Shown here: piece after piece, positions 33,119-40,591 of the stretch
Numbering within the stretch: the first letter of the stretch is position 1
How the letters are laid out: each line of letters begins with the position of its first letter
NCBI RefSeq assembly: GCF_037154075.1
Contig: NZ_JBANRJ010000001.1
Span: 2,847,501-2,911,500, forward strand
DNA from: Sphingobium aromaticiconvertens
GTDB lineage: Bacteria; Pseudomonadota; Alphaproteobacteria; Sphingomonadales; Sphingomonadaceae
Direction: 5' to 3'
DNA: 64,000 nt
The notes under the pieces: model-generated
What the model saw: the letters and a program-made list of their open reading frames with translations, nothing else
Databases searched by the model: none
Told to the model about the DNA's origin: nothing
Translations under genes and position numbers: made by a program

Positions 33119-34357
33119 ATGAGCAAATTGCAGCACAGTGAACAGACGGTCGTGGATCACGCGTCGGACGCGCCGATGCTGGACGCGGTGTTGCGCTGGA
33201 GCGCGGTGAACAGCGGATCGCGCAACCTGGATGGCCTTCGCACTATGGCCACGCTGCTCGCCGACGCCTTTTCAGTGCTGCCCGGTGCGATCACGCTGGT
33301 CGATCCTGTACCGGTCGAGACTGTCGATGCGGATGGACGCCTTCATCCGCTTCTGCACGGCCAGCATCTTCGTCTGTCGGTCAGGCCCGAAGCGCCCCGC
33401 CGCATCCTGCTGACCGGCCATATGGACACGGTGTTCGCGGCCGATCATCCATTCCAGACCACCCGCTGGTTAGAGGATCGCGTGTTGAACGGCCCCGGCG
33501 TCGCCGACATGAAGGGCGGGATCGCGCTGATGCTGGCGGCGCTGACCGCGTTTGAGCGCGCGTCGGAAGCAACAGCGCTAGGCTATGACGTCATTCTCAA
33601 TAGTGACGAGGAGGTAGGCAGCCCCTCCTCCGCCGCGCTGATCGCAAACATGGCACAGGGAAAACTCGCCGCGCTGACGTATGAACCCGCGCTGCCGGAC
33701 GGAACGCTGGCGGGCGCACGGGCAGGCAGCGGTAACTTCTCGATCATTGTCACTGGCCGTAGCGCCCATGCCGGTCGCAATCCGCAGGATGGACGCAATG
33801 CGATCGTCGCCGCTGCGGACATTGCCCTGCGGTTGAAGGCGGCGAGTGGGGATGGGTTTTCGTGCAATCCGGCACGGATCGACGGCGGCGGACCGAATAA
33901 TGTCGTGCCCGACCATGCCGTGCTGCGCATCAATTTCCGGCCCCGCACGTCCGCAGACGAACAGGTGGCCAGCGCCTTGATTGACCGCGTGATGGCGGAG
34001 GTCGCGCAGGATCATGACGTCATGGTGCGCCGGCATGGTGGCTTTGGCCGCCCGCCAAAACCGATGGACGCCAAGGCACTGGCCCTGTTCGACCTGGTGC
34101 AGCAGTGCGGCGCGGACCTTGGCCTGCCGATCGGCTGGCGTGACACCGGCGGGGTGTGCGATGGCAATAATATCGCGGCCTGCGGAGTCCCGGTGGTCGA
34201 CACGATGGGCGCGCGGGGCGGAAACATCCACAGCGGTGAAGAATTTTTGCTGACACAGAGCCTGCCGGAACGGGCCGCCCTGTCGGCATTATCGCTGATG
34301 CGGATCGCGCAGGGTCGGTTTGACCAACAGCGCTTTAGAGAGGGGACCAGCCTTTGA
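33119..34357 (+). CDS. M20-family metallohydrolase in the arginine succinyltransferase operon
   Basis: 412 residues with every M20 metal-site motif: TGHMDTVF (His, Asp), GPGVADMKGG (bridging Asp), NSDEEVGSPSS (catalytic Glu and Glu ligand), TYEPAL (Glu) and NIHSGEEF (His). A lid domain with GRSAHAGRNPQDG lies between. M20 enzymes cut amide bonds of N-acyl amino acids or dipeptides; DapE removes succinyl from succinyl-DAP. The stop overlaps the astA start, so it is co-translated with the arginine succinylation pathway. A succinyl-amino acid substrate, perhaps N-succinylglutamate, is inferred. It could instead be a carboxypeptidase G2-like enzyme. Confidence 0.85.
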   Translation: MSKLQHSEQTVVDHASDAPMLDAVLRWSAVNSGSRNLDGLRTMATLLADAFSVLPGAITLVDPVPVETVDADGRLHPLLHGQHLRLSVRPEAPRRILLTGHMDTVFAADHPFQTTRWLEDRVLNGPGVADMKGGIALMLAALTAFERASEATALGYDVILNSDEEVGSPSSAALIANMAQGKLAALTYEPALPDGTLAGARAGSGNFSIIVTGRSAHAGRNPQDGRNAIVAAADIALRLKAASGDGFSCNPARIDGGGPNNVVPDHAVLRINFRPRTSADEQVASALIDRVMAEVAQDHDVMVRRHGGFGRPPKPMDAKALALFDLVQQCGADLGLPIGWRDTGGVCDGNNIAACGVPVVDTMGARGGNIHSGEEFLLTQSLPERAALSALSLMRIAQGRFDQQRFREGTSL

Positions 34358-35379
34358 GCTTTTTCATGCGTAACGCGCGGCCGGACGACCTTCAGACGCT
34401 GTATGAAATGGCGAAGCTGACCGGGGGCGGCTTTACCAACCTGCCGCCCGACCGCACGTCGTTGATGGCGAAGCTGGAGCGGACTGCGCAAGCGCTGGAC
34501 CGGGCAGAAGGCGGCATTGAGGATGAACTGATCGTCATGGTGCTGGTCAACAGCGCCACCGGACAGGTGCGGGGTACGTGCCAGATTTTCAGCATCGTCG
34601 GGCAACACTGGCCTTTCTATTCCTATCGGCTGGGCATGTTGACCCAACATAGCCGCGAGCTGGAGCGGACTTTCCGCGCGCAGATGCTGTCGCTGACGAC
34701 CGATCTGGAGGGTTCGACCGAAGTGGGAGGCCTGTTCCTGCACCCGCGCGAACGAGCGGAGGGGCTGGGCCTGCTGCTCGCGCGCAGCCGTTACCTCTAT
34801 ATCCGCGGTCACAGGCCGCGCTTTGGCGACCGGATCATTGCCGAACTGCGCGGCGTGATTGACGAGGCGGGTGGATCGCCCTTCTGGGATGGCCTCGCAG
34901 GCCGTTTCTTTGGCATGAGCTTTCAGGAGGCGGACGAGTTTAATGCCGTGAACGGCAACCAGTTCATCGCCGACCTGATGCCCAAGACGCCCATCTATAC
35001 CGCGATGCTGACCGACAGCGCGCGCGCGGTGATCGGCCTGCCCCACCCCAGCGGTCGCGCGGCGATGCGGATGCTGGAGACGGAGGGTTTCGCCAACCCC
35101 GGTTATGTCGATATTTTCGATGGCGGTCCGACACTGGTGGGGCAGATTGACAGCCTGAAGACCATTGCTCAGGCCCGCGACGTGACGCTGGCCGGAATTG
35201 CGGATGACGACGCAGGTGGGCAGCGAATGCTGGTGGCGTCTGGTCGGCTGGCTGATTATCGCTGCGCCTATGGGCTGGTTACGGATGGCGATGAGGGCAG
35301 CGTGATGCTCGACCGGACCAGCGCGACGCTGATCGGGGTCGAACCGGGGCAGAGCTTCACCATTGCGGGGCGCGCATGA
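34354..35379 (+). CDS. astA: Arginine N-succinyltransferase
   Basis: 341 residues, an acetyltransferase-fold enzyme that transfers succinyl from succinyl-CoA to arginine, the first step of the AST catabolic pathway. It begins RNARPDDLQTLYEMAKLTGG and contains EVGGLFLHPRERAEGLGLLL, FWDGLAGRFFGMSFQEAD and MLETEGFANPGYVDIFDGGP, all typical of AstA. The start is TTG at 34354, overlapping the M20 gene stop and placed about 9 bases after GAGAGGGG; the ATG at 34366 is an alternative. The stop overlaps the astB start (ATGA). Confidence 0.94.
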   Translation: MSFFMRNARPDDLQTLYEMAKLTGGGFTNLPPDRTSLMAKLERTAQALDRAEGGIEDELIVMVLVNSATGQVRGTCQIFSIVGQHWPFYSYRLGMLTQHSRELERTFRAQMLSLTTDLEGSTEVGGLFLHPRERAEGLGLLLARSRYLYIRGHRPRFGDRIIAELRGVIDEAGGSPFWDGLAGRFFGMSFQEADEFNAVNGNQFIADLMPKTPIYTAMLTDSARAVIGLPHPSGRAAMRMLETEGFANPGYVDIFDGGPTLVGQIDSLKTIAQARDVTLAGIADDDAGGQRMLVASGRLADYRCAYGLVTDGDEGSVMLDRTSATLIGVEPGQSFTIAGRA

Positions 35380-36638
35380 CCGTCAGGGAAATCAATTTCG
35401 ACGGCATCATCGGTCCCAGCCATAATTATGCGGGCCTCAGCCTTGGCAACCTGGCCTCGACGAGCCATGCCGGTGCAGTCTCTCGCCCCCGCGCGGCCGC
35501 GTTGCAGGGCATCGACAAGATGCGCGCAAACCTGCGGCTGGGACTGACACAAGGTATATTCCTGCCGCAATGGCGGCCCAACGCGCACTGGCTGGCGTCT
35601 CTCGGCACATCGCTGGCGGAAGCGCAGCCCCATATTCGTGCGGCGGCGATGTCCGCATCCTCCATGTGGGCCGCCAATGCGGCGACCGTCTCCCCGGCCA
35701 GCGACACCGCCGATGGCCTTACCCACGTCACCGTCGCCAATCTGATGACGATGCCGCATCGCAGCCATGAATGGCCGCAGACGCTGAACCAGTTGCGGAC
35801 CGCCTTCTCTGCGCGCGACGCCTTCGTGATACATGACCCCATCCCGGCGCCCTTTGGCGATGAAGGCGCGGCCAACCATATGCGGCTGTGTGAGGGGCAT
35901 GATGTGCCGGGCGTCGAAATATTCGTCTATGGCGAGGCGGGGGGGCCCTTCCCCGCCCGCCAGCATGTCGAAGCGAGCCGGGCCGTCGCGCGGCTGCACG
36001 GCCTGTCGCCCGCCCGCACGCTTTTCGTCCAGCAAAGCGAGGAGGCGATCGCGGCAGGCGCCTTCCACAATGACGTAGTCGCGGTAGCGAACGAGACGGT
36101 GATCTTCGCGCATGAACAGGCCTTCGCGGACAAGGATCGATTTTACGCAGCGCTGCGCGATATGCTGCCCGCCGTTCAGGTCATTGAGGTGCCCGCTAGT
36201 GCGATCAGCCTGATCGACGCGATTCGCAGCTATCTGTTCAACGCCCAACTGGTAACGCTGCCCGATGGCGGCGGCATGGCGCTGATCTTGCCAAGCGAAG
36301 CACAAAGCGTGCCCGCCGTCTGGCAATGGCTGGAGGCAATGGTCGCAGGCAATGGGCCGATCCGCAAACTGGAGCCGGTCGATGTGCGCCAGTCGATGGC
36401 CAATGGCGGCGGCCCCGCCTGTCTGCGCCTGCGGGTGGTCGCAAACCCTGCCGATATCGACCCCCGCTTTCTGGTAGACGAAGAAAAGCTGGACGCCATC
36501 GCCGCCATCGTCGCTGCCTATTGGCCCGAAGAAATCGCGCCCGACGACCTCAACGACACACGGTTGATCGCATCGATCGAACAATCGTGGTTAACCCTTG
36601 TTGACCATTTGGGCCTGTCGGGCGATCTATTGCCATAG
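35376..36638 (+). CDS. astB: N-succinylarginine dihydrolase
   Basis: 420 residues. It begins EINFDGIIGPSHNYAGLSLG, the family signature, and contains AANAATVSPASDTADG, FHNDVVAVANETVIFAHE and the C-terminal NGGGPACLRLRVV. AstB converts N-succinylarginine to N-succinylornithine with release of ammonia and CO2. It is the third gene of an overlapping operon with the M20 hydrolase and astA. AstC, AstD and AstE are not in the window. Confidence 0.95.
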   Translation: MTVREINFDGIIGPSHNYAGLSLGNLASTSHAGAVSRPRAAALQGIDKMRANLRLGLTQGIFLPQWRPNAHWLASLGTSLAEAQPHIRAAAMSASSMWAANAATVSPASDTADGLTHVTVANLMTMPHRSHEWPQTLNQLRTAFSARDAFVIHDPIPAPFGDEGAANHMRLCEGHDVPGVEIFVYGEAGGPFPARQHVEASRAVARLHGLSPARTLFVQQSEEAIAAGAFHNDVVAVANETVIFAHEQAFADKDRFYAALRDMLPAVQVIEVPASAISLIDAIRSYLFNAQLVTLPDGGGMALILPSEAQSVPAVWQWLEAMVAGNGPIRKLEPVDVRQSMANGGGPACLRLRVVANPADIDPRFLVDEEKLDAIAAIVAAYWPEEIAPDDLNDTRLIASIEQSWLTLVDHLGLSGDLLP

Positions 36639-36670: not shown

Positions 36671-36892
36671 ATGGACCGGATCAAGCGCCTTTTCACGATC
36701 AAGACCAAGTTCGAGGCGTTTCTGGTCATCTATGCGCTGGCGCTGGGTGCGGCAGAGCGCGGCGTCGTCTATATGCAGCAATATCCAGGCTTTGGCGGCC
36801 AGTTGCTGGCACTGGCCTGCACTGGCGCTGTATTCATGTCCGGCGGCATGATCATCGATATGGTGGAATTACGGCGCCACCAATATGCCTGA
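36671..36892 (+). CDS. Small two-helix membrane protein of unknown function
   Basis: 73 residues, MDRIKRLFTIKTKFEAFLVI onwards. Two hydrophobic segments (FEAFLVIYALALGAAERGVV and LLALACTGAVFMSGGMIIDM) and charged ends suggest an inner-membrane hairpin. A GGCAGGATG site precedes the ATG. It starts 32 bases after astB on the same strand and may be read from that operon. No family is recognised. Confidence 0.65.
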   Translation: MDRIKRLFTIKTKFEAFLVIYALALGAAERGVVYMQQYPGFGGQLLALACTGAVFMSGGMIIDMVELRRHQYA

Positions 36893-36979
36893 TCCCCGTT
36901 CGATCCGAATTGGAGGCGATCACGCTATCCGATAAAGCGACCTTCCCTATCCTGCGGTCAAACAGGTGGGGAGATCGAG

Positions 36980-37873
36980 ATGAACCAGCTACGCACACCC
37001 GTACAGGGCCACCATGTGACAGCAGCTGAACTGGTCCGCAATTTCGCACATTGGCGCGATATTGGTGCACGCGATCCCGTCCTTGTGACCCATCATGGCC
37101 GGGAAACCCATATGCTGCTGGGCATCGACCATTATCGCAAACTGTCGCGCATGGATCGTCAACAGGATAAGGAAGGGGCCGATGCGCGGGTGCGCGACCT
37201 AGCAACCAGTCTGCATGAAGGGTTGATCCTCTGCATGGCGGACTTCCTGATTGATGTCGCCAATCCCGCTGCGCTGGCGATGACCCGGCGGCGTCACGAA
37301 CCGATCGAGGGCATTTTGCTGTGGGATGCTATCCCCGAACTCAGCAACACGCTGATAGAAGCGCATCTGCGCCATAGCCTGACCAGCGGTACGCGCAGCG
37401 CGGCGGACATCCCCTCTCCCTTCTTCCCCGATAGCTGGCTGCACGTTGAGAGCTTCGCCTTTGGCGAGGGCGTCGCCCTGCTGCTGCGCGACATCAGTCA
37501 GGATGTCAGCCAGCACCGTCTGGCCGATGCCAAGACCGCCATGTTGCGGGCGATGGAAGTGCATGGAGGGGTGGCCTATGCGCGGCTTTCGGCCCGTGGT
37601 TTCATCGATTTCATCAATCCGGGCTTCTGCACCCTCATCGGCTTGCCCGAGGAACGACTACGGCAAATACCGCTGCCCGACCTTGCCGATGTCGCCAGCC
37701 GCGCACCGTTGCGCGAAGGACTGGAGGGCGTGCTGCGCGGCGAAGGCGATCGGCTGCTGCGCGCGGCGCTCCTCACTAACCGGGGCGAGCTGGTGTCCGT
37801 CGACATCGCGCTGGTGCGCTTGCAAGGCACTTATGGCACCGAAGGCGCCATGGCGATCTTGACTCGGGCCTGA
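36980..37873 (+). CDS. YefM/Phd antitoxin-like N-terminus fused to PAS-type sensor domains
   Basis: 297 residues in three parts. Residues about 10-60 (VTAAELVRNFAHWRDIGARD, then PVLVTHHGRETHMLLGIDHYRKL) match the Phd/YefM antitoxin pattern: a conditional N-terminal helix, a basic strand pair and a closing Y-x-x-L. Two PAS-like domains follow at about 70-175 and 190-295; the second shows YARLSARGFIDFINPGFCTL and a C-terminal GELVSVDIALVRLQGT. No kinase, GGDEF or HTH output domain is present and no toxin gene is next to it. A GGGGAGATCGAG region precedes the ATG. A sensory DNA-binding regulator is the natural inference. Confidence 0.75.
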   Translation: MNQLRTPVQGHHVTAAELVRNFAHWRDIGARDPVLVTHHGRETHMLLGIDHYRKLSRMDRQQDKEGADARVRDLATSLHEGLILCMADFLIDVANPAALAMTRRRHEPIEGILLWDAIPELSNTLIEAHLRHSLTSGTRSAADIPSPFFPDSWLHVESFAFGEGVALLLRDISQDVSQHRLADAKTAMLRAMEVHGGVAYARLSARGFIDFINPGFCTLIGLPEERLRQIPLPDLADVASRAPLREGLEGVLRGEGDRLLRAALLTNRGELVSVDIALVRLQGTYGTEGAMAILTRA

Positions 37874-38096
37874 GCCAGACGCGCGAGAGAGAATGACGAT
37901 GGCCTGGGACGCCACGAGTACGCCACCAGTACAATAATTTGATCCATTTCGGTGGCAATCGCTATCCTTCGCTAAATCATCGCTGCTGTCGGGCGATCCA
38001 CCCCTCTCCCGCGGGAAGCCCTCTGCATAATTTACGCAATCGGATCGACCATGGCCGTGAACCGCCCGGTCAGCCCGTTCCGATAGCATCGCGCTT

Positions 38097-38543
38097 ATGC
38101 ACAATCCCGCTCCCCAACCTACCGATCCGCGCCGTCGCGCTGCCTCCCTCTCGCACGACAGGCGTGGGTCGGTCCTTGTTGAAGCCGCATTCGCTCTGCC
38201 GCTGCTGATCGGGCTGCTGTTCGGCATTCTCATCTATGGCAGCTGGTTCATGACCGCGCACAGTATCCAGCAGGCCGCCAACGACGCCGCCCGGATCGCA
38301 CTGGCGGGGCTGGACGATACGGAGCGGCGGATGCTGGTCGATCAGGCCGTAACACGCAGTCTGGCCGGGTCCACCCTGGTCGATGCCCACCTGTTGCACG
38401 TCGCGACCAGCATGACGGGCGGCTATTACAGTGTCCGCCTGACCTATGACCTCCAGGCCGATCCTCTTTTCGCGGCGTCCCCGGTGCCGCTGCCGACAAC
38501 ATCCATCCAGCGTGAAGCCATAATCAGGGTGGAGGCCAGATGA
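38097..38543 (+). CDS. TadE-like pseudopilin family protein
   Basis: 148 residues. A basic N-terminus (RRRAASLSHDRRGSVLVEAA) leads into the hydrophobic helix FALPLLIGLLFGILIYGSWF, the TadE pattern with Glu at the helix start. The rest is a small periplasmic domain. TadE minor pseudopilins are processed by a prepilin peptidase and help assemble Flp/Tad pili. Its stop overlaps the next gene start (ATGA). No other tad gene is in the window. Confidence 0.82.
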   Translation: MHNPAPQPTDPRRRAASLSHDRRGSVLVEAAFALPLLIGLLFGILIYGSWFMTAHSIQQAANDAARIALAGLDDTERRMLVDQAVTRSLAGSTLVDAHLLHVATSMTGGYYSVRLTYDLQADPLFAASPVPLPTTSIQREAIIRVEAR

Positions 38544-40198
38544 ATGAGGAGGGCGATATGAAGACGCTGGGCCAGACACTGCACAAGACACTACGCAAGG
38601 AGCAAAGGGGCGGTATCGCCATCCTCCTGGCTTCCTCTCTCTTCATGCTTGCGGGGGCCGCGACGGTGGCAGTCGACCTGGGGTCGGTCTATCTGGCAAA
38701 GCGGCAGTTGCAGGGGGTAGCCGATGCTGCCGTTCTGGCCGCCAATGCGGGGGGGCGCACCGCCGCCCAGCAGTTGCTGGTCCGCAGCGGCCTGTCCGCC
38801 GTCGAATTGGCGGCCCTGACCGATGGCCAATATGTCCGCGACCGCACCATTCCGGTCGCCAATCGCTTCACACCCGGCGTAACCCAGGCCAACGCGACGC
38901 AGCTAGTATTGCGCCAGCAGGTGCCCCTTTATTTCGCGCGGATATTGGTCGGTCGCGATCATCTGGCGATCGAGGCGCGGGCTACCGCAGCGCGGGCCGA
39001 TCTGGCCGCCTTCTCAATCGGCACTGGCCTCGCTTCGGTCGAAGGCGGACTACCCAATGCACTTCTGTCAGCACTGGTGGGCACGGAGCTGAACCTGTCG
39101 GTCATGGACTATCAGGGGCTTGTGGATCTGGATGTCGACCTGCTGGGCTTTGCCCATGCCCTGCAAGCGCGGGCCGGTGCAGGCGACGACAATATCCTCG
39201 CCCTGTTCGGTCGGGAGGTGCCCGCCGCCGACATCGTCAATGCCCTGGCCGATACCGCAAGCGGATCGCAAGCCGCCACCACGCTGCGGAACATTGCCAA
39301 TCGCCTTGCGGGCCGATCGATTCGTCTGGATGACATCATCGACCTCGGACCGATGGCGGATGACACCGGCGCGGGAAGCCCCGCACTGGTGCTGGACGCT
39401 TATACCTTGCTGCGCATGATCCTGGAGCCTGCGCCGGGTCAACCCCGCCAGATCGACATCAATCTTGCGGTCCCCGGCCTCACCTCGACCCGCGTGAAAC
39501 TGTTGCTGGGAGGAGGCCAAGCGCATTCGCCATTGCTAACCGTGACCGATGCGCGTGACGTGGTGATCCGTACCGCCCAGACTCGCCTCTCCCTCGAAAC
39601 CAGCGTCGGCACACCGATACCAGGCCTGCTGACTCTGCGGATACCCCTTTTGGTCGAACTGGCCGCTGCAGAGGCCCGCCTGTCCGCGATCAACTGTGCG
39701 GCTGGCAGTCCGGGCCACGGCGTTACCCTGGCAGTGACGCCCTCGGTCGGATCAGTGTCGCTGGGGGACGTTGATATGGCGCAGTTCGCCAACCCCGGAA
39801 CTGCGCTCACGCCGCGCCCGGCGCTGATGGGGCAACTGCTGTTGGGCACACGCATCACTGGCTATTCCCATGTCGCGCTGGGCGGGATTCAGCCGCAAGT
39901 CGTCCATTTCAGCCCATCGCAGATCGCGGCAAAAGATGTGCGCCGCGTCAGTACCAATGATCTGGTCGGCGGTGTCACCGGATCGCTTCTGCGCGATATT
40001 CAGCTTCAACTCACGCTGCTGGGTCTGCCAATCAACACGGGGCCGCTGGCCAGTGCCGTGGGCGGATTACTGAGTACCACGGCGCCGCTGCTCGATGGTG
40101 TTCTGAATAGTGTGATGAGCCTGCTGGGCGTGCGGATCGGTACTGCTGATGTCCGTGTGCATCAGATGCGCTGCGGCCGCTCTACACTGGTCGCCTGA
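38540..40198 (+). CDS. TadG-like pilus assembly-related membrane protein
   Basis: 552 residues. It starts at ATG 38540; an internal Met (MKTLGQ) is a possible alternative. An N-terminal Tad-type helix (GGIAILLASSLFMLAGAATV) with the DLGSVYLAKRQLQGVADAAV extension is the TadG hallmark. A long extracytoplasmic region follows, Ala/Leu/Gly-rich, without a visible von Willebrand domain. It pairs with the upstream TadE-like gene in an overlapping two-gene operon. A role in surface pili or secretion is inferred from the family. Confidence 0.8.
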   Translation: MNEEGDMKTLGQTLHKTLRKEQRGGIAILLASSLFMLAGAATVAVDLGSVYLAKRQLQGVADAAVLAANAGGRTAAQQLLVRSGLSAVELAALTDGQYVRDRTIPVANRFTPGVTQANATQLVLRQQVPLYFARILVGRDHLAIEARATAARADLAAFSIGTGLASVEGGLPNALLSALVGTELNLSVMDYQGLVDLDVDLLGFAHALQARAGAGDDNILALFGREVPAADIVNALADTASGSQAATTLRNIANRLAGRSIRLDDIIDLGPMADDTGAGSPALVLDAYTLLRMILEPAPGQPRQIDINLAVPGLTSTRVKLLLGGGQAHSPLLTVTDARDVVIRTAQTRLSLETSVGTPIPGLLTLRIPLLVELAAAEARLSAINCAAGSPGHGVTLAVTPSVGSVSLGDVDMAQFANPGTALTPRPALMGQLLLGTRITGYSHVALGGIQPQVVHFSPSQIAAKDVRRVSTNDLVGGVTGSLLRDIQLQLTLLGLPINTGPLASAVGGLLSTTAPLLDGVLNSVMSLLGVRIGTADVRVHQMRCGRSTLVA

Positions 40199-40291: not shown

Positions 40292-40368
40292 TGGTGCGCC
40301 CGGAACGATTCGAACGTCCGACCCTCAGATTCGTAGTCTGATGCTCTATCCAGCTGAGCTACGGGCGC
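40292..40368 (-). tRNA. tRNA-Arg (anticodon ACG), copy 1
   Basis: 77 bases including an encoded CCA. Acceptor GCGCCCG/CGGGCGC, D arm GCTC..GAGC, anticodon stem TCAGA/TCTGA with loop CTACGAA (ACG, read as ICG), and T arm with TTCGAAT. All stems close. Confidence 0.96.
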
Positions 40369-40380
40369 ATTGGAGTGGCG

Positions 40381-40409
40381 CAGATAGAAGGGAGCGGTTA
40401 ATCTGGCAA
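40381..40409 (-). promoter_or_regulatory. Promoter of tRNA-Arg copy 1
   Basis: On the minus strand TTGCCA, 17 bases, TATCTG, ending 12 bases before the tRNA. The same pair at the same spacing precedes copy 2. Confidence 0.7.
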
Positions 40410-40460
40410 CCCCTCTTTTCAGCATCTGTCAGATGCGGCGCCAAGCCCCGGAAACGAACA

Positions 40461-40484
40461 ATGGGCGGCCCTGAGGCCGCCCAT
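40461..40484 (-). terminator. Hairpin between the two tRNA-Arg genes
   Basis: ATGGGCGGCC and GGCCGCCCAT are a perfect 10-bp stem with a 4-base loop, 30 bases past the CCA of copy 2. It is a near copy of the hairpin at 40237, but the T-run is weak here, so read-through to copy 1 is possible. Confidence 0.55.
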
Positions 40485-40514
40485 CAAATCCCTGATTTCC
40501 TTGTGAAAGGAAAA

Positions 40515-40591
40515 TGGTGCACCCAGAGCGATTCGAACGCCCGACCCTCAGATTCGTAGTCTGATGCTCTATCCAGCTGAGCTATGGGTGC
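40515..40591 (-). tRNA. tRNA-Arg (anticodon ACG), copy 2
   Basis: 77 bases with encoded CCA. Acceptor GCACCCA/TGGGTGC, anticodon stem TCAGA/TCTGA, loop CTACGAA (ACG), T arm GGGCG/CGCTC. It differs from copy 1 by compensated changes in the acceptor stem and by changes in the T stem. The spacing is 223 bases from copy 1. Confidence 0.96.

Follow-up and report, generated by a model that had tools for sequence, protein, structure and literature searches.

In the bHLH-PAS factors a dimerising DNA-binding head is placed before two PAS domains, with a DNA-binding fold unrelated to that of Phd, and PpsR is a one-component PAS regulator whose HTH lies at the end opposite to the head described here. 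MqsA, still one half of a toxin-antitoxin pair, is an antitoxin of a fold family other than Phd/YefM. An alphaproteobacterial class of toxin-antitoxin (TA) modules pairs PHD with SMa0917-type PemK/MazF-like toxins (PMC2701414). YefM sites have a TGTACA core and the long palindrome overlaps the -10, and MqsA is described as also regulating rpoS and csgD (PMC4803016), an earlier example of biofilm genes under the control of an antitoxin-type protein.

The window, by which we mean the whole stretch of 64,000 nucleotides of Sphingobium aromaticiconvertens DNA that was analysed, encodes a protein (Phd-PAS) in which a head of the Phd/YefM antitoxin type is joined to two PAS domains. We consider it likely that Phd-PAS is a one-component regulator, the antitoxin head of which binds a palindrome at the promoter of tadE/tadG, a pilus-assembly-like gene pair, under the control of the PAS domains, probably as an activator, so that it would control genes for pilus-like or adhesive structures of the cell surface.

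36980..37873, + strand: Phd-PAS-PAS gene, 297 aa, from Pfam and structure prediction.
37007..37159, + strand: predicted DNA-binding head, residues ~10-60, from conservation and predicted fold.

The protein is laid out as the head (residues ~10-60), a linking helix (49-77), PAS1 (~77-173), two helices (173-179 and 184-195) and PAS2 (~197-297). A preliminary description of the locus had recognised the Phd/YefM-type head, the two PAS domains and the lack of an adjacent toxin gene, and Pfam, Foldseek and the predicted fold confirmed this reading; no toxin gene lies beside the Phd-PAS gene in the window. The Phd/YefM Pfam match of the window protein is weak, under the curated cut-off, and the domain was matched at E ≤ 1e-3 by 25 of 52 family members. 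When the full-length model was compared with the PDB using Foldseek the PAS domains filled the list and masked the head, therefore the head was predicted by itself, and the predicted fold matched YefM/Phd structures, including E. coli YefM (yefM-yoeB, 2a6q), as the preliminary description had expected of such a comparison. YefM operators are palindromic too (PMC4803016). The tandem PAS domains are supported by Pfam and by Foldseek of the full model, for which the top row was the tandem-PAS repressor PpsR (4hh2). The PAS pair is alike in the two proteins, whereas the head of Phd-PAS is N-terminal and of Phd type. The tandem PAS domains of the bHLH-PAS proteins ARNT, HIF-2a and CLOCK-BMAL1 also match the model structurally, and the two layouts appear to be convergent. 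Neither an HTH nor a bHLH domain was found by Pfam in the window protein, and no full-length paralogue was found in the S. aromaticiconvertens genome. Two marks of a one-component PAS regulator are present, namely PAS sensor domains and, by prediction, a head of Phd/YefM fold on the same chain.

The VTAAELVRNF...VTHHGR stretch of the head ranks with the most conserved segments of the family. R20, F22, T37, H39, G40 and R41 are invariant in 23 aligned family sequences, and among 52 sequences the sole invariant columns are H39, G40 and R41 in the head and R206 in PAS2. Such strong conservation argues against the head being a dimerisation or scaffold remnant without DNA binding in what would be a cytoplasmic PAS adaptor; we regard that reading as very improbable, even though the weak E-value of the head in the window protein and the inferred nature of its DNA binding would both agree with it. 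In the regulator that we propose, the head would dimerise and the PAS domains would sense a signal such as a small molecule, a redox change or the like. Past the head, the chain is modelled as one helix running into PAS1, at the place where a toxin-binding tail would be free, and this continuous helix, residues 49-77, could relay the PAS signal to the head.

The protein search returned 106 relatives at E ≤ 1e-3 and the profile search 135, of which the best 120 were listed (~8,000 candidates scored in each). Relatives with a stated organism are mostly Sphingobium and bear names such as 'PAS domain-containing protein', and our analysis suggests that these Sphingobium proteins, annotated only in this way, are transcription regulators of attachment. 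Of 298 genomes from the same taxonomic family, 34 gave a Phd-PAS match of ≥ 100 bits (at most seven candidates scored per genome), thus the earlier statement that the fusion is unusual needs a limit, as it recurs within its own family. The weaker matches among the 143 matching family genomes were mostly long PAS proteins or short head-only frames. Across a class-wide sample of 385 genomes (at most six candidates scored in each), full-length matches were found only in the same family, in two genomes, the others being PAS proteins or frames of 90-184 aa with the head only. No paper on a Phd/YefM-PAS fusion was found by title or start of abstract, in a search with thin coverage of subscription journals. 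One genome, G155, carries three Phd-PAS paralogues (loci L056, L057 and L060), one of which alone adjoins TadE/TadG, and L087 and L088 hold a divergent variant of 325-342 aa, which resembles the head and PAS1 at 120-123 bits and sits among different genes.

The gene neighbourhood in the window is as follows.

36671..36892, + strand: 73-aa protein with no Pfam match, a conserved upstream neighbour in Sphingobium-type loci.
38097..38543, + strand: TadE-like gene, 148 aa, predicted target (PF07811, 4.5e-12).
38540..40198, + strand: TadG-like gene, 552 aa, predicted target (PF13400, 1.2e-7; PF09977, 1.7e-7).
40292..40368 and 40515..40591, - strand: two tRNA-Arg (ACG) genes close together, which account for the odd overlapping ORFs at 40292-40591.

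The TadG-like gene overlaps the TadE stop and is predicted to form a single operon with it; the same genome has a second TadE-containing locus at C1:1946500-1948619. The loci compared were the window, 20 named loci and 38 further stretches, with L052 set apart as a stand-alone head; 35 of the 38 further stretches hold a match of at least 100 bits, making with the window 36 of the 37 such places (G178 is missing). A simple ORF caller recovered the Phd-PAS gene in 53 loci and missed it in L051, L068 and L080. In 37 of the 53 a TadE- or TadG-like gene lies no more than 2 kb from Phd-PAS, some with only one of the pair called, and 36 of 52 is the safer count because L039 and L090, whose contigs are equally long, appear to be one locus. 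The order differs between lineages: Phd-PAS is followed on the same strand by TadE-TadG in Sphingobium and in the window, is divergent from TadE-TadG in L058, L061, L064 and L071-L076, and comes after TadE-TadG in L049, L065-L067 and L070. Eighteen loci are without TadE/TadG (16 of the 53, with L068 and L080), and on six of these stretches there is a YadA-like trimeric adhesin, which is the divergent next gene in L069, L083 and L084, is divergent with a called frame of 72-79 aa between in L053 and L054, and is present in L068 as an anchor end ~4.3 kb from Phd-PAS. In L078 an RTX-repeat protein adjoins Phd-PAS. The search for further fusions and their neighbours, proposed in the preliminary description, thus yielded a conserved family with recurrent TadE/TadG or adhesin neighbours, and in some genomes the target may be a trimeric autotransporter adhesin instead of TadE/TadG. 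An M20-type peptidase, AstA and AstB stand in a row at 33119-36638 and are kept beside Phd-PAS in Sphingobium-type loci; the same three are near Phd-PAS in L058, arranged otherwise.

The association extends to gene content. The TadG subfamily (≥ 230 bits) was found in 23 of the 298 family genomes, 22 of which also carry Phd-PAS at ≥ 100 bits (Fisher 1e-23), and at genus level 14 of 14 TadG genera have Phd-PAS, which is present in 21 of 96 genera (Fisher 5e-12); these Fisher values ignore phylogeny, and p-values here overstate independence because many loci are closely related. The sole TadG genome without Phd-PAS, G237, belongs to the same genus as the window. Phd-PAS and TadG lie together in 18 of the 22 genomes; in G217, G244 and G280 the distance between them is 198 kb to 1.3 Mb, and in G178 they are on separate contigs.

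A 15-bp palindrome, TGCGTAA-N-TTACGCA, occurs upstream of TadE in most TadE-linked Phd-PAS genomes, and the head dimer would bind this site in the TadE/TadG promoter (targets 38097-40198).

38024..38038, no strand assigned: candidate operator TGCATAATTTACGCA, the best match in the window to TGCGTAA-N-TTACGCA.

A palindrome-constrained motif search of 23 TadE upstream regions, with Sphingobium down-weighted, returned TgCGtAAnTTaCGcA with a score of 69.2 vs 23.3-29.0 in six shuffled sets (first-order random sequences). This score is not blind, as the palindrome was first spotted by eye in distant loci and the 15-bp width was chosen afterwards; widths 13-19 also outscored their shuffles. The training regions were those with a recognised TadE start, which missed L049, L074, L075 and L076, and the 23 representatives were picked from the rest. 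Ten non-Sphingobium regions alone gave the same motif, at 48.2 vs 21.5-30.4 in 12 sets of real other upstream regions. With the matrix trained without Sphingobium, 38024-38038 was the top of the 64-kb window at 19.4 bits, the next being 9.8, and with the first matrix it reached 19.6 bits, the next being 9.5. The non-Sphingobium matrix also gave ≥ 10 bits in 15 of 17 Sphingobium-type regions, with L047 and L050 off the usual place, and in several loci there is a second copy ~85-130 bp further upstream. By letter count against the consensus the match is weak at many loci, the sites in the proximal zone are weak in L040, L041, L058 and L061 (1.7-5.8 bits), and no obvious operator is visible in the aligned Sphingobium intergenic regions. 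Genome-wide, the palindrome is not enriched (20 strand matches at up to two mismatches vs 28 for a reversed control), and that the window site is the genome's only exact match means little because the pattern was fitted to it. The region upstream of the Phd-PAS gene itself (36893-36979), which had been put forward for a DNA-binding assay, holds no match to the palindrome.

Presence of the palindrome tends to go with that of Phd-PAS. Of the TadG loci not used for training, six of nine with Phd-PAS have a site of ≥ 10 bits (G043 13.3, G123 14.9, G293 12.3, G280 13.6, G178 17.9 and G213 11.2 bits, the misses being G182 8.7, G217 8.3 and G244 4.1 bits), against none of five without it (Fisher 0.028). 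In G178 and G280 the palindrome precedes TadG even though Phd-PAS is distant, on another contig and 283 kb apart, respectively. The test has the following scope. G224 (17.8 bits) was left out since its site is the same as that of the training genome G042, and the weak Tad-like fragments of G229 and G253 (57-59 bits) stand outside the count; G043, G123, G182 and G293 are congeneric with training genomes; in G293, G280 and G213 the TadE frame was unrecognised and the site position was judged by distance to TadG. The controls without Phd-PAS were G237, G138, G174, G220 and G061, with a best score of 4.4 bits in the 900 bases preceding TadG and up to 9.3 in 1,500; of these controls G237 alone is closely homologous in TadG, and the remaining four are distant (147-202 bits). 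A sixth control, G273, was dropped with only 419 bases before TadG; counting it gives none of six (Fisher 0.017). All told, 22 genomes carry both Phd-PAS and TadG, and 18 of them have a site of ≥ 10 bits (the misses being G071, G182, G217 and G244).

The palindrome also accompanies part of the Phd-PAS loci that lack TadE. Among these loci, several of which are related, eight of 16 reach ≥ 10 bits upstream of Phd-PAS, at no more than 400 bp from the head (or from the ORF start, if the start of the head was unrecognised), vs 4.6% of 691 other upstream regions (binomial 2e-7). At ≥ 14 bits the palindrome was found in only four of 847 other-gene upstream regions, a control that includes neighbours of the Phd-PAS gene, which the 691-region control excludes. 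These four are one in L052, before a stand-alone Phd gene, two in L049 that share a single site, one on each side of it, before a run of genes ending in TadE-TadG, and one in L054, before a YadA-like gene near Phd-PAS. Taken together, comparative genomics points to a putative operator at the target promoter.

The palindrome could instead belong to another widespread regulator of surface genes, with Phd-PAS acting by protein contact only. Both the site and the Phd-PAS gene mark clades, four of the 22 genomes with Phd-PAS and TadG are without a clear TadE site, and G253 (L132), without a Phd-PAS match, has a 13.9-bit palindrome 50 bp before its 59-bit Tad-like fragment, which goes against our main reading. 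We nevertheless find this improbable, as the palindrome is absent from all five TadG relatives without Phd-PAS whose upstream DNA was compared and the same palindrome class precedes stand-alone antitoxin genes with a similar head in other alphaproteobacteria.

If Phd-PAS does bind this site, its spacing bears on the direction of control.

38084..38089, + strand: -10-like hexamer TAGCAT, with 55.5 bp between its centre and that of the operator.

The TadE ATG comes 7 bases after TAGCAT, hence a near-leaderless tadE transcript is possible. Spacing was compared in 29 rows, two of which are one locus, over a 51-bp zone lying 95-145 bp ahead of a fixed codon of TadE, and the rows include weak sites (L040 5.8, L058 2.7 and L072 7.7 bits). 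In the window 66 bp separate the site centre from the TadE ATG that follows; across the 29 rows the distance to the nearest ATG is 64-66 bp in 18, and five further rows (L039 and L090, one locus; L047, L051 and L086) come to 65-66 bp when translation is taken to begin at an earlier ATG. In 18 of the 29 rows there is a TANNNT hexamer at 55-57 bp from the site; these rows are all Sphingobium-type except L058, which gives no support because its site has only 2.7 bits. This hexamer spacing would put the site upstream of a normal -35, and activators that contact polymerase from the upstream side typically have their site at about -66. Judged from these two spacings, activation is the likeliest direction of control, and the bound regulator would activate tadE/tadG. 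The same spacings tell against Phd-PAS binding the operator as a repressor of tadE/tadG that is freed by the PAS signal, which we see as possible but rather unlikely. Repression would be in keeping with the PemK-linked stand-alone relatives scoring ≥ 9, where the palindrome is 19-66 bp before the head match, except in L052 (91), with the habit of most Phd/YefM proteins to repress, and with antitoxin operators, which usually overlap promoters and serve repression (PMC4803016). Compared with YefM sites, the Phd-PAS palindrome is TGCGTAA-N-TTACGCA and is placed well upstream.

The stand-alone relatives also point to a source for the head. The 49 stand-alone heads, scanned for sites within 160 bp, had a median best site of 12.2 bits where a PemK-like gene follows (24 heads, with near-identical members L189-L191, L159/L161 and L163/L164) vs 2.6 bits in the 25 others (Mann-Whitney 4e-6), and head score and site score were correlated (Spearman 0.55). 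Three of the partner genes matched PemK_toxin at 2.9e-5, 2.7e-5 and 0.053, and four PemK-linked heads (L188, L195, L172 and L175) are without the palindrome. Going by their PemK-like matches, these genes are probably SMa0917-type, and likeness of the head together with the shared operator class suggests that the Phd-PAS head, which would dimerise as proposed above, descends from alphaproteobacterial Phd/PemK-like antitoxins of this type. PHD/SMa0917 antitoxins have a similar head and the same class of 15-bp palindrome before their own gene, whereas Phd-PAS is without a toxin partner, PAS domains replace the neutralising tail, and the window palindrome precedes tadE and not the Phd-PAS gene itself.

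It had also been suggested that the protein senses a signal and neutralises an unlinked toxin. Its Phd/YefM head, and the PemK-like toxin genes that follow similar stand-alone heads, are what a sensor-controlled antitoxin would have, but the suggestion went unsupported: one PemK-like toxin query, of the kind found with similar heads, gave no match in the genome of the window, an empty result that is weak evidence, and nothing below E 0.1 in the compared Phd-PAS loci. The recurrent neighbours are TadE or adhesin genes, and in the model a predicted helix into PAS1 stands where a free tail would be, so that we consider this the least probable of the readings, and a very unlikely one.

The other suggestion, in which a one-component sensor has taken over the antitoxin fold as its DNA-binding head, gained support, with a candidate operator, a candidate target (TadE/TadG) and a likely source now found. 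On how this came about our judgement is evenly balanced: a TA autorepressor may have become a signal-responsive activator, with the head and operator type carried over, the operator shifted from overlapping the promoter to about -66, two PAS domains taking the place of the toxin-binding tail, and the regulator linked to different attachment genes (TadE/TadG, YadA-like) in each lineage. If true, this would amount to an antitoxin-based prokaryotic version of the bHLH-PAS layout, and to a testable case of a TA module taken apart, with its DNA-binding half and operator type reused in a sensory regulator. It would also assign to a TadE/TadG gene pair its regulator, the site and a step of signal sensing.

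Two further observations concern the stand-alone genes. The genome of the window has a stand-alone Phd-like gene of its own (a 95-aa frame; G000:C1:168198-168359, - strand; L089/L171), with another head type and without the palindrome. In L159, L161, L163 and L164, which have PemK-like partners, a related near-palindrome, TCCGGA-NNN-TCCGTA, lies 28 bp before the head match.
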